Assembly: GCF_022539665.2 (NCBI RefSeq)
Contig: NC_081335.1
Coordinates: 3,906,001-3,970,000, forward strand
Reading direction: 5' to 3'
DNA: 64,000 bases
DNA from: Daphnia carinata
Taxonomy: Eukaryota; Arthropoda; Branchiopoda; Diplostraca; Daphniidae
Shown here: positions 1-5,365 of the stretch, one piece after another
How the letters are laid out: every line of letters starts with the position of its first letter
How positions within the stretch are numbered: the first letter of the stretch is position 1
Notes under the pieces: model-generated
The model's input: only the letters and a program-made list of their open reading frames with translations
What the model was told of the DNA's origin: nothing
Databases searched by the model: none
Translations under genes and position numbers: made by a program

Positions 1-249
1 GAATTTAACATTTCTTGGTACATGAATATGGCAATCCGTTTTACATAAAAAAAAAAAAAAAAATGCGGAAAAAAAAAAAAAAAAAAAAAAAAAAAACTTT
101 TTTCTCTTTTTTCTACCCGTAGCCATCTATCAGTCGGTTTCGTTATTACAGGCATGTAAGCAATTTCAGTTAATTGTATCCCATTAGCAGTTAATTGAGT
201 AGCGTGGCTGGAGAACAACGCGTGGCTGGAGAACAACGCCTGGCTGGAG

Positions 250-1560
250 GATCAATTGAAAAATGGATAAGATAATAAAACAAAAAAATGGTAAGTATAA
301 ACATTATTATATTGGTTTTCAATTATTAATTATTGTTTATTAGATCAAATTATGAAGCTGCAGGCCCAATTATTGGAACAACACAAAATATTAGATAACA
401 GCAAAGCTAAGGATGGTAAGGCCTAATACGTAATGATTCTATTTATTTGCTTTTATTCATTTGTGTTTTGTAGCTCAAATTTTGAGTCTACATGCTCAGT
501 TACTGGAAAATAAACAAATTAGAATGGGACACTTTCCAAACAGTGAAGGAGGTTTTTCCAAACTCATCCCTAACTGAACGTGAGGATGAGTTGGCGTTAG
601 GCGAACACAGTCAGGTACCTAAACTTTTCAAATAAGAATTCAAAATAAGTATAGAATTTTAACAAACAATTATTTATTGTTAAGTTATTCAGTCTACCAC
701 CTGACAGTGTGTTAAAGTTAAATTCTGTTAGTGCTGCACTAAAAGAATTGTTAGTAATAAGTCTATGGAGCGAAGGAAGTGAACAATTGTGGGACCGTAT
801 TTGGGCTGAAAATGGATGTGGTACGGAAACCCAGAAATAGCACGAGTTCAACATAAAACATGAATTAGGTACTTTTCAGTTTTTTGTCTATCGAAAAAGT
901 ATTTTTAATGCTATTATTTTGCATTCACAGAATTTTAGTGGGGGATCAAGTCATGTCTGGAAGTGTTACAGGATGGAAGAGTGAGCCTACAGTTGAAAAA
1001 CACTGAAAGTGCATTACCCTTAAGGTATAAGGTAAAGTAATAGAGTATGCACATTGTCTAATGAGAAGTACCATCTTGTGTGAATGAATCCTGTATAACA
1101 GCAATCCTTTATAGTTCTGTCACACCTAGAAGCCTCAAATAATTCTGCTTCTCTTGCTAAAGAACAACTTGTCCTTTACGTTCAGAGTGTTGGTGAAGCT
1201 GGGTACTTAAATGGCCCTAAAGATGTTTCATTTCGTTGGCATTGCAGCGATGAACATCATACATGGACTTTTTAGGTATGAAAGGAATTTTCTTGAAAAT
1301 TTTTTGAATTTATGACAAAGCATTTCTCCTGCTTTTTGCCAACCATGTCTAATCTAAAAAAAAATTTATCCAATAGGAAAGGATTTTCAGCATCCTGGGA
1401 ACACAACTATCAACAATGCAACATTCTACAGGTGCTAGTTTATCATTCAAGAGCCTTATACAATGAAGTTAATCTGCAATTTGTATGTCCTTTCCCAAGC
1501 TTCCACCAGAAGTTGAATCTATGAGTCATGTAAGTTCCATGATCAACAATTGATGTGTTT
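250..1560 (+). pseudogene. Decayed spliced coding region inside the left arm (unknown protein)
   Basis: A short exon (ATG at about 263, encoding MDKIIKQKN) ends at a GT donor. An exon at about 344-417 (DQIMKLQAQLLEQHKI) is bounded by ttag and gtaagg, and another follows from about 474 (AQILSLHAQLLENKQI). The two exons share a QLLE-type coiled-coil repeat. Further open blocks lie at 680-870 and 1140-1275 (including LAKEQLVLYVQSVGEAGYL) but are broken by stops. The inverted copy in the right arm carries the same blocks. I do not recognise the family; it could be the remnant of the element's own protein. Confidence 0.45.
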
Positions 1561-1702
1561 AACGGTGTTGTTTTTCTTTTCTCAATATAGGTTAATAGTA
1601 ACATTGGATCTGAAAAGATTCTTGGTTGGGGCAAGACACTGAATAAATTGTATTGATTGGATGGATGACATGACATTGCTATACTTAATTCGGATTCCCG
1701 AG

Positions 1703-2165
1703 ACGGTATTTGATATTAAAAAAATTGAAGTGCATATCTGGGCTCCCTTCTTTTCTGAAGCCCCGTTTCCCCTTGACTCATAATAAGCCCGTAGGGGGTC
1801 ATGCCCCTACTGTACGGTATATATAAAAACAACATATACCGAGGTTTGGAGGGCTCTGGCCGGAAAGGGGACGTGGGGTGCCGCTTCGTCCGATGATGTG
1901 TTCACGGAGGGTGACGTGGCTGCCCACAAATCCGAACTAAAGGTTAATCGCTCCTGTAAAAATGTTCCAAATCTTCAGCTCTTCTTCCGGCTTCTCTTAG
2001 CCAATCACCGGGTAATCTCCCCGGTGGGTCAACAAGGCAGTGTCTCCCCCTGCCTGGGTTGACGGCAACTTTTGAAAGGGTTATTGTGCCTTTTTAAAGT
2101 TGCAAAAATAATTGTATTGTGCAGAGAATTGTCAATAAAATTTTTTTTATAAAATATTTTTTGCA
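1703..2165 (-). repeat. Inner module, copy 1 (inverted)
   Basis: This 0.46-kb GC-richer module is inverted relative to 2975-3436 and nearly identical to it. It contains a perfect 7-bp-stem hairpin (gtagggg...cccctac, about 1791-1810) and a block rich in c/g runs. A third, more diverged copy lies at 4955-5365. The module ends near the tetranucleotide-like 'aaatacc' on all three copies. Confidence 0.8.
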
Positions 2166-2316
2166 AAATTTTTTTCTTTCATTGTCTGTGTAAGCTGTGT
2201 TCACACATTACAATTACGAACTTTTTTTTTTGCTTTGCTTTATTTGTTTTTATCACCTTTGATAGTAAGTATTGTTTCCATTGGTTTATCTTTTATCTGT
2301 AAGCATTCTATTATTA

Positions 2317-2378
2317 TCCAGGGATCGAACCCTCGATGTTCGGCATACCGCGCCGATGCTCTACCAATGAGCCATGAA
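2317..2378 (-). repeat. tRNA-like sequence in the palindrome apex (left)
   Basis: On the minus strand the sequence shows a tRNA-type A box (tggctcattggtagagc), a 5-bp anticodon-like stem (tcggc/gccga) and a B box (gggttcgatccc). The acceptor stem is not convincing, so this is called a tRNA-derived sequence rather than a functional tRNA. It is homologous, in inverted orientation, to 2667-2732. Confidence 0.55.
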
Positions 2379-2499
2379 TTATATGATGTCAAGTTGGCTT
2401 TTTTCTAGTCACTTGTGGACTTGCATTTACACTTAGAATAAAACTGAAATCAATTCTGTAATATACTCTTCTACATTTATTCTACTTCATTTTTACACA

Positions 2500-2566
2500 T
2501 CTACTGAGGTTTGAACCCAGGGTAACAGGTATCGCAGCTAAAGGCTCTACCACAGAGCTATGGACT
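2500..2566 (-). repeat. tRNA-like sequence near the centre of the palindrome
   Basis: The minus strand carries a D-arm (gctctgtggtagagc) and a T-arm (ctggg-ttcaaac-ctcag) at tRNA-like spacing. The anticodon arm does not pair well, so it is probably a tRNA pseudogene or tRNA-derived promoter. It lies in the unpaired loop and has no obvious inverted partner. Confidence 0.5.
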
Positions 2567-2666
2567 TTATGAATGCAAAAGAAAGATAAACATGTAGTTG
2601 TGAAAGACTGCATAAACATCCTAGACGATAACATATGATATGCAATAATAAAATATTTAGATATAT

Positions 2667-2732
2667 CTCGTGGCTCAATGTTAGAGCATCGGCGTTGCAC
2701 GCTGAATGTCTGGGGATCGGTTCCCATACGAG
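2667..2732 (+). repeat. tRNA-like sequence in the palindrome apex (right)
   Basis: On the plus strand ctcgt...acgag can pair as an acceptor stem, gctc...gagc forms a D stem, and tcggc-gttgcac-gctga forms an anticodon arm whose loop would place TGC in the anticodon position. The T arm is irregular (tgggg atcggtt ccca). It looks like a decayed tRNA-type sequence; a functional tRNA is unlikely but not excluded. Confidence 0.5.
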
Positions 2733-2974
2733 TAAAACAAAATACAAAATTACTTCAAAACATATCCAGATATTACACGTTGTTCCTTGAATCTAAGTTG
2801 AAGAATTCAAAGAGTGTAATAAGTAATAATTGAATACTTACAGGTAAACGATAAACAAATGGAAACTGCTTACCATGAAAGGTGACAAAAAATAATAAAG
2901 CAAAGAAAAAAAAAAAAAGCTCATAATTGTAATGTGTGTACACAGTTACACAGACAATGAAAGAAACAAATTTT

Positions 2975-3436
2975 ACAAAAAATATTTTATAAAAAAAATT
3001 TTATTGACAATACTCTGCACATTACAATTATTTTTGCAACTTTAAAAAGGCACAATAACCCTTTCAAAAGTTGCCGTCAACCCAGGCAGGGGGAGACACT
3101 GCCTTGTTGACCCACCGGGGAGATTACCCGGTGATTGGCTAAGAGAAGCCGGAAGAAGAGCTGAAGATTTGGAACATTTTTACAGGAGCGATTAACCTTT
3201 AGTTCGGATTTGTGGGCAGCCACGTCACCCTCCGTGAACACATCATCGGACGAAGCGGCACCCCACGTCCCCTTTCCGGCCAGAGCCCTCCAAACCTCGG
3301 TATATGTTATTTTTATATATACCGTACAGTAGGGGCATGACCCCCTACGGGCTTATTACGAGTCAAGGGGAAACGGGGCTACGGAAAGGAAGGGAGCCCA
3401 GATATGCACTTCAATTTTTTAAATATAAAATACCGT
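2975..3436 (+). repeat. Inner module, copy 2
   Basis: Reverse-complement partner of 1703-2165 with very few differences, including the same hairpin (about 3329-3348). The near-identity contrasts with the more diverged outer arms and suggests either stronger constraint or recent conversion between the arms. Confidence 0.8.
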
Positions 3437-4954
3437 CTCGGGAATCCGAATTAAGTGTAGAAATGTCATGTCATCCATTCAATCATTACGATTTATTCAG
3501 TGTCTTGCCCCAACCAAGAATCTTTTCAGATCCAATTTTACTATTAACCTATGGTGAGAAAAGAAAAACAACACCATTAAGCATCTCAATTGCTGCTCAT
3601 GTGACTTACATGACTTATAGATTCAACTTATGGCAGAAGCTTGGGAAAGGCCATACAAATTGCAGATGAAAATCATTGTACAAGGCTCTTGAATGATAAA
3701 ATAGCATCCCTAGAATGTTGCATTATTGATAGTTGTGTTCCCAGTATGCTGAAAATCCTTCCCTATTGGATAAATTTTTTTTTTTAGATTAGACATGGTT
3801 GGCAAAAAGCAGTAGAAATGCTTTGTCATAAATTTTCAAAATTTTCAAGAAAATTCCTTTCATACCTAAAAAGTCCATGTATGATGTTCATCGCTGCAAT
3901 GCCAACGAATGAAACATTTTTAGGGCCATTTAAGTATCCAGCTTCACCAACACTCTGCACGTAAAGGACAAGTTGTTCTTTAGCAAGAGAAGCAGCTCAT
4001 ACCTTAATGGTAATGCACTTCAGTGTTTTTCAACTGTAGGCTCACTCTTCAATCCTGTAACACTTCCAGATTTTACTTGAACCACCACTAAAATTCTGTG
4101 AATGCAAAATAACAGCATTAAAAATACTTTTTCAATAGACAAAAAACCGAAAAGTACCTAATCCATGTTTTATGTTGAACTCATGCCGTTTCTGGGTTTC
4201 CGTACCACACCCATTTTCAGCCCCAATACGGTCCCACAATTGTTCACTTCCTTCGCTGCATGGACTTATTATTAACAATTCTTTTAGTACAGCACTAACA
4301 GAATTTAAATTTAACACACTGTCAGGTGTTAGACTGAATAACTAAACAATAAATAATTGTTTGTTAAAATTCTATACTTATTTTGGATTCTTATTTGAAA
4401 AGTTTATGTACCTGACTGTGTTCGCCTAATGCCAATTCATCCTCATGTTCAGTTAGGGATGAGTTTGGAAAACCCTCCTTCACTGTTTGGAAACTGTTCC
4501 ATTCCAATTTGTTCTTTTCCCCTTAGCTGAGCTTGTAGACTCAAAATTTGAGCTACAAAACACAAATGAATAAAAGCAAATAAATAGAATCATTACGTAT
4601 TAGGCCTTACCATCCTTAGCTTTGCTGTTATCTAATATTGTGTTGTTCCAATAATTGGGCCTGCAGCTTCATAATTTGATCTAATAAACAATAATTAATA
4701 ATTGAAAACCAATATAATAATTTTATACTTACCATCCTTTAGTAGTATTATCTTATCCATTTTTCAATTGTTCCTCCAGCCACGCGTTATTCTCCATCCA
4801 CGCTACTGAACTAACTGTGAATGGCATCCAATGGACTGAAATTGCCTACGCCAGTAATAACGAGTCTGAGCGGTAGATGGCTACGTGTCGGAAAAAAAGA
4901 AAAAAGTGCGATTTTTTTTTTTTTTTTTATGTAAAACGGATTGCCCTTAAAAAA

Positions 4955-5365
4955 GACAAAATTTGTATTGGCAATACACTGCACAATCCAAAGACTTGCA
5001 ACTTTAAAATGACAAAATAGCCGATTTCAAAGTTGCTGTCAACCAAGGTAGGGGGAGACACTACATCAGCTGACGCTTGGCTAAGAGAAGCCGGAAAAAG
5101 AGCGAAGGTTGCGGACAAGCTTTTACGTGAGCGATTAACCGTTAATTCGGATTTGTGGGTAGCCCCAAAGCCCTCCAAAAGATATCACCGAGCCAGGGGG
5201 ACCCCCACGTCCCCTTTCCGGACAGCGCACTCACAACCGTTACTGCTGATCACAGTAGGGGCATGACCCCCTACGGGCTTATTACAAATCTAGGGGAAAC
5301 GGGGCCACAGAAAAGAAGGGAGCCCAGATATGCACTTCAATTTATGTATATCAAATACCATAATG
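4955..5365 (+). repeat. Inner module, copy 3, directly outside the palindrome
   Basis: Starting about 10 bp after the right terminal repeat, the sequence again follows the inner module in the same orientation as 2975-3436, with many substitutions and several indels. Shared landmarks are the 'gggggagacact' block, 'ggctaagagaagccgg', the gtagggg...cccctac hairpin (about 5256-5275) and 'gggagcccagatatgcacttcaatt'. It therefore behaves as a module that can exist outside the palindrome. Confidence 0.75.

Follow-up and report, generated by a model that had tools for sequence, protein, structure and literature searches.

Several DNA transposons with a fold-back shape have been described. In the available parts of the original papers, chimeric copies of Galileo (12/170) are reported to have non-matching 7-bp flanks, for which an exchange between copies was proposed (PMC3573991), homogenisation is mentioned by the authors of Tetris (PMC4079207), and both Tm1 and Tetris were placed in Mutator by their authors (PMC3169594; PMC4079207). 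With regard to the termini, the portion of the literature at hand states that complete IS3EU families always have TA...TA ends and usually 6-bp duplications, and that GingerRoot elements have 6-bp duplications and mostly TA...TA ends (PMC10045372). The present study concerns a palindrome at positions 30-4945 of a 64,000-nt stretch of the Daphnia carinata genome (assembly GCF_022539665.2, contig NC_081335.1, positions 3,906,001 to 3,970,000, forward strand), which is referred to as the window and lies on the contig labelled C5. The palindrome (locus L009) is one copy of a dispersed D. carinata family that is probably a fold-back DNA transposon of non-autonomous type, bounded by TA...TA and duplicating 6 bp of target, and that an IS3EU/GingerRoot-type transposase most likely mobilises in trans. 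What this assignment is built on can be read directly: the ends and mirror arms, the dispersal of the copies, target duplications in some of them, arm identity within many copies and arm mixing between copies.

The family is abundant. A terminal 21-base word is present at 412 genome sites with at most one mismatch (reversed control 0), the 18-base word TATGGCAATCCGTTTTAC, which shorter relatives carry as well, has 803 exact genome copies (control 0), and a 25-mer from an internal module occurs at 931 sites (control 0), split 466 to 465 between the two strands. Among the first 100 of these 931 places, all on contig C1, 82 form 41 mirror pairs with a spacing of 1,475-1,603 bp and 18 are unpaired, which extrapolates to some 380 palindromic cores that would occupy about 2 Mb of a 108-Mb genome. 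A search with the apex gave 416 candidates, of which 40 were scored, and the best 40 rows match at 93% or more. The copies compared below come from 45 loci and are no random sample, having been chosen for their similarity to the arm, apex or terminus of the window copy; the TATGGCAATCCGTTTTAC termini considered are the first 100 of the 803, all on C1. A typical copy measures 5.0 kb and consists of two mirror arms of ~2.25 kb with an apex of ~0.5 kb between them, so that inverted repeats make up most of the element and the middle holds no recognised protein, as in the fold-back structural class. A chance origin of the palindrome is ruled out by its recurrence at hundreds of unrelated places. 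An earlier reading made from the letters of this stretch only (the sequence-only reading) had named the recurrence of full palindromes with consistent ends at unrelated loci as its check; such copies exist in hundreds, some of them with 6-bp duplications.

In the window, self-comparison places nearly all of 30-4945 in inverted pairs, as that reading had described. Examples are 1356-2193 with 2946-3783 (838 nt, 95%) and 383-1007 with 4019-4643 (625 nt, 94%), followed outwards by 75-153 with 4850-4928 (79 nt, 81%) and by exact inverted ends of 35 nt (30-64 and 4911-4945), which confirms the exact ends that had been noticed and extends their length, given before as 17 bp. The impression that the outer arms had diverged further than the inner ones is likewise correct, since in ungapped pieces the outermost ~270 bp are 81-89% identical and the inner pairing 94-98%. 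The left arm (30-2317, plus strand) and the right arm (2824-4945, minus strand), which belong to different subfamilies and are 4.8% apart in their inner part, are about 2.1-2.3 kb long and enclose a non-pairing apex of about 0.5 kb (2318-2823, annotated on the plus strand), which occurs in both orientations with respect to the strand read. The right arm lacks the stretch at about 1032-1144 of the left arm. Within the apex, two of the tRNA-like sequences pair in inverted orientation over 2321-2384 and 2661-2724 at only 73%, which suggests that the mirror plan predates the similarity now seen between the arms. The left terminus TATGGCAATCCGTTTTAC (27-44, plus strand) starts with TAT at position 27, and its reverse complement closes intact copies. 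The right terminus (4931-4948, minus strand) has CTT as its last three bases where intact copies have ATA; the true terminal sequence thus ends at 4945, and both the final ATA and a target duplication are missing. A remnant of a related, more diverged element (4958-5359, plus strand), whose module has 75% identity overall, abuts the right end.

The full ends of the copies are TATGGCAATCCG...CGGATTGCCATA, and at nearly all ends TAT is followed by GGCAATCC and GGATTGCC by ATA. Where the element ends and the duplication begins was read from L028, which sits in a dispersed repeat. Five related repeat copies, those among the fetched loci that align across the junction of this one locus, lack eight letters of its joined flanks, which correspond to the element's TA and a single GGATAT. 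In L044, L020 and L017 these letters are missing as one uninterrupted block at the junction, within two bases; in L024 the gap is likewise uninterrupted but displaced by a few bases, and in L011 it is fragmented. Judged from this empty-site comparison, the element runs TATGG...CCATA and duplicates 6 bp. Both ends are readable in 15 copies (12 copies together with L009, L016 and L027), whereas others such as L011, L017, L019, L023, L026 and the second L010 copy were excluded for an unreadable end. All six letters match in 3/15, namely L010 (TAAAAA), L027 (ATAGCC) and L028 (GGATAT), as opposed to 0/132 mismatched flank pairs. Two short relatives were also inspected: a fold-back relative of 723 bp that has the same ends (L012:9060-9783) is flanked by AGTGGA on both sides and has an interior that is mirror-like by eye, and L017:8275-8443 has no target duplication, so that 6/6 is reached in one of the two. 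In addition, another terminal-like word lies within 30 bases outside 19 of 52 distinct ends (L009-L028, L037-L044) compared with 136 of 11,200 random 30-mers. Some of these extra termini stem from a neighbouring copy, and often a truncated terminus directly abuts a full one; nested insertion, footprints and slippage are candidate causes. In L010, L012, L015 and L041 adjacent ends of the same type lie end to end, 12-30 bases apart.

The arms of one copy are usually more alike than arms of different copies. In the inner arms of 24 elements, the difference within an element has a median of 0.8% (at most 0.5% in 12, 1.1-2.6% in 6 and 4.0-6.6% in 6), while the means between elements are 3.6-4.5%, depending on the arm classes compared. 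For 10 of the 12 arms of the six diverged copies, another element has an arm within 1.7%. The window copy is one of them: its arms are 4.8% apart, and its left arm differs from an L010 arm by only 0.7%. A two-state fit to 15 full elements assigned four as diverged throughout, two as alike throughout, seven as alike on the apex side and two as alike on the outer side. Of the seven, three have their break confined to the variable outermost stretch (130-136), and in the last two it falls in the ~110 bp of arm nearest the apex. At the four remaining, mid-arm breakpoints (844, 1249, 1394 and 1780; L010, L013, L016 and L020) the identical part is always next to the apex, although the binned data allow a break near 330 in L016; this polarity is suggestive, not proof. 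The best reading of these comparisons is that arms are homogenised within copies and swapped between copies, and the window copy, judged by its arms, is of the swapped (chimeric) type. Arm-to-arm copying, by gene conversion or by hairpin-type repair from the apex side, would keep the arms alike, and exchange with other copies would produce chimeric arms, which in the window copy would explain both the diverged arms and the missing target duplication. A switch is also visible in L023, whose left arm (L023:202-1605) opens with a different subfamily, which has a broken gene of its own, and turns into the present subfamily near arm position 504; a search with this second gene, from the outer part of that arm, matched nothing.

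With TATGG...CCATA ends and 6-bp target duplications, the palindromes share the termini and duplication length of IS3EU and GingerRoot as given in the accessible part of the source, from which they differ by mirror arms of ~2.25 kb and by having no transposase that was found (PMC10045372). They fit this superfamily, as placed by ends and duplication alone, and an enzyme of this type would act in trans. The sequence-only reading had stated that no DNA transposon class matches, which is too strong, given this fit and the known fold-backs with long terminal inverted repeats; its remark that no transposase is recognisable holds, as Pfam gave no match in three frames of the left arm or in the scanned relatives. 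Autonomous members of the superfamily would be expected to encode a DDE transposase of the IS3/IS481-like kind. The genome matches to DDE_3, DDE_Tnp_4 and rve_3 that are listed include none on C1, the sole contig with listed general termini, and are therefore uninformative either way. For rve_3, 150 of 510 candidates were scored, and the best match among them (C7:1393622-1393807) lies in an open frame of 265 amino acids. A pair of termini 9.4 kb apart on C1 was considered as an autonomous element and rejected, as 6.8 kb of its middle (L045) consist of a truncated arm and unrelated DNA.

Several observations weigh against an IS3EU/GingerRoot-type transposon with homogenised and exchanged arms. 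No transposase with these ends was found, and the DDE_3, DDE_Tnp_4 and rve_3 matches in the genome cannot be joined to palindrome ends. At most four of six duplication letters agree in 11 of the 15 copies readable at both ends, and the five of six in L025 are weak, as 2/132 mismatched flank pairs reach the same value. For two of the 12 arms of the diverged copies the sample contains no close counterpart, namely for the right arm of the window copy, whose nearest other arm is 2.7% away, and for one L017 arm (3.6%), and mid-arm breakpoints number only four (4/4 apex-side; sign test 1 in 16). The TAT and ATA that flank nearly all ends were at first read as a TA target duplication, as expected of a Tc1/mariner-type element, a reading given up in view of the empty site of L028; since this site and the 6-bp duplications place TAT and ATA within the element, a Tc1/mariner origin is very improbable. 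A one-off inverted duplication or an assembly hairpin, which the identical arms of some copies would suit, can practically be dismissed: for the family it is refuted by the hundreds of copies that share ends and core and lie at unrelated places, and the arms of the window copy differ by 5%. The sequence-only reading had already argued from the divergence of the arms against a hairpin artefact. The same transposon could also obtain its near-identical arms anew each time by hairpin-primed copying of one half (fold-back replication) instead of conversion between arms that already exist. For this speaks L022 (C8:4092244-4097272), where both flanks continue the mirror symmetry, at 99.5%, for no less than 2.2 kb; a 1.8-kb part of this flank was recovered complete from these two places alone, and the flank includes dispersed repeats, some of which are, by coordinates, symmetric around two module-holding places on C4. 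A second case, C1:3695554-3700576, shows flank symmetry over 424 bp at 97%. These flank palindromes could be real hairpin-type events or assembly errors, the latter being a point against the use of L022, and in 12/13 copies, as well as in one further pair, the flanks are unrelated beyond the first 5 bases. Matching 6-bp duplications, as in the three copies above, would not be expected by such a route either, and we regard hairpin-primed copying as unlikely.

Each arm has a block of ~300 bp with far fewer copy-specific changes than the rest, the low-variation module, which lies at 1720-2100 (plus strand) of the left arm, with the 25-mer at 1788-1812 present in all 30 arms of the 15 elements compared; the right-arm counterpart (3039-3419, minus strand) was located via the inverted pair. 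Alleles confined to a single element amount to 13 over 381 sites in 1720-2100 (5 over 300 in 1730-2029) versus 197 over 1,420 in 300-1719 (Fisher p 5e-10). As neutral decay after insertion should spare no block, selection during spread, conversion among copies and assembly polishing must all be considered. A coding role seems unlikely, since the best-kept blocks, identical letter for letter in aligned relatives, show no sign of replaceable codon positions. On a structured RNA the observations are mixed: the module folds better than shuffled sequences (z -3.55 and -4.88), but it has no Rfam match and hardly any covariation, with a double change in 1/52 pairs across 8 sequences, and 5 to 23 pairs of a single-sequence fold are broken in each of five relatives. 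One module 25-mer had no exact match in viral contigs.

It is quite possible that the low variation is an effect of copy number, through conversion among ~930 copies or short-read polishing, and not of constraint. Related elements other than the palindromes carry the module too, and its 25-mer occurs twice as often as the best of the arm 25-mers tested (931 versus 452 sites, the latter being one of the best-kept outside the module and present in 29/30 arms), a gap to which module copies within other elements contribute. Against this, copy-specific changes per site are four to eight times as frequent in the surrounding arms of the same copies, and some blocks are unchanged in more diverged relatives that are only 75-81% identical overall. 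A bolder proposal, which we put forward tentatively and consider improbable, is that the palindrome is the unit kept alive, its arms being rewritten from the apex so that a transposon without an enzyme of its own escapes decay; the module and the third tRNA-like sequence of the apex would then be working cis-parts (a break, replication or transcription-boundary site), constant in ~930 module copies despite the decay of the gene.

This gene is spliced and present in both arms, its 5' part, interrupted by stops and one frame break, at 263-990 (plus strand) of the left arm, and its copy at 4036-4681 (minus strand) in the right arm, also broken. A tblastn search with three predicted D. carinata proteins (P0001, P0002 and P0003, with 3, 9 and 30 member sequences) hit the exons of both arms in their proper order, interspersed with stops and frame breaks, which bears out the decayed spliced coding sequence suspected earlier. 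The gene is directed from the element end toward the apex, so that the two genes would face each other across it, and an AATAAA at 2134-2139 (plus strand), kept in 30/30 arms compared, is a possible poly(A) signal. Its relatives are Daphnia proteins only, including proteins of Daphnia magna, and are without known function; P0001-P0003 contain no Pfam domain, solved structures gave no match, and in the scanned relatives the only Pfam hits were a Tyrosinase match of P0007, weak and below threshold (E 0.07), and a glycine-cleavage domain in P0012. In three exons third-position change is not clearly in excess. The predicted D. magna protein P0012 joins a fragment of the glycine-cleavage P-protein to a relative of the arm gene, which is probably a gene-model fusion with a repeat.

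The three tRNA-like sequences of the apex lie at 2313-2381 (minus strand, 26.6 bits), 2496-2567 (minus strand, 19.5 bits) and 2664-2735 (plus strand, 23.1 bits). They are present as had been noticed, but all score below the Rfam RF00005 gathering threshold of 29 bits and are not recognisable as tRNA genes. ARAGORN in its bacterial setting predicted no tRNA gene in the window and one in 28 loci (Thr-GGT in L032). Across 24 apexes, the third is the least variable apex part, with 14/72 variable sites versus 177/347 in the remaining 2382-2800 (p 5e-7), compared with 24/64 sites in the first and 44/72 in the second; only the third is unusually constant, a choice made after viewing all three.

On a larger scale, C1:6.78-10.07 Mb (3.3 Mb) has no terminus, module or arm word among the matches listed, with both sides rich in them, and may be a real desert.

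If the proposed assignment is true, a single small animal genome would offer several hundred natural palindromes of 5 kb as a series for studying survival, conversion and arm swapping, and the minor superfamily IS3EU would gain a fold-back branch. The sharp fall in copy-specific changes within the module is a testable puzzle, as no protected block would be expected in dead transposon copies. With Galileo of Drosophila the palindromes share long inverted repeats, arms from different subfamilies and non-matching flanks, whereas Galileo has 7-8 bp duplications and a P-superfamily transposase, and neither a gene in both arms nor a tRNA-like centre is described in the accessible text of the two papers (PMC3573991; PMC4168063). 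Tm1 of root-knot nematodes has the same fold-back shape, a carried gene and terminal inverted repeats that are 93% alike on average within an element (PMC3169594), and Tetris of D. virilis shares the shape (PMC4079207); according to the same portions of these sources, both differ in having 8-10 bp duplications, which the palindromes do not show. Dada, named after Danio and Daphnia, resembles them in its 6-7 bp duplications and the involvement of tRNA genes, which as far as the consulted excerpt goes are the insertion target in Dada, whereas in the palindromes tRNA-like sequences are part of the content (PMC3706591). Dada-U6 and Dada-U1 have no terminal inverted repeats there (PMC3706591), unlike the palindromes, which thus depart from the Dada pattern of insertion into small RNA genes without such repeats, RNA-gene target sites not having been searched for. 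Among the literature titles searched, with most subscription journals and Repbase outside the search, none describes the palindromic element. Homogenised and chimeric arms have parallels in what is available on Galileo (PMC3573991) and Tetris (PMC4079207); the fold-back class is known, and it is the combination of features that is new.

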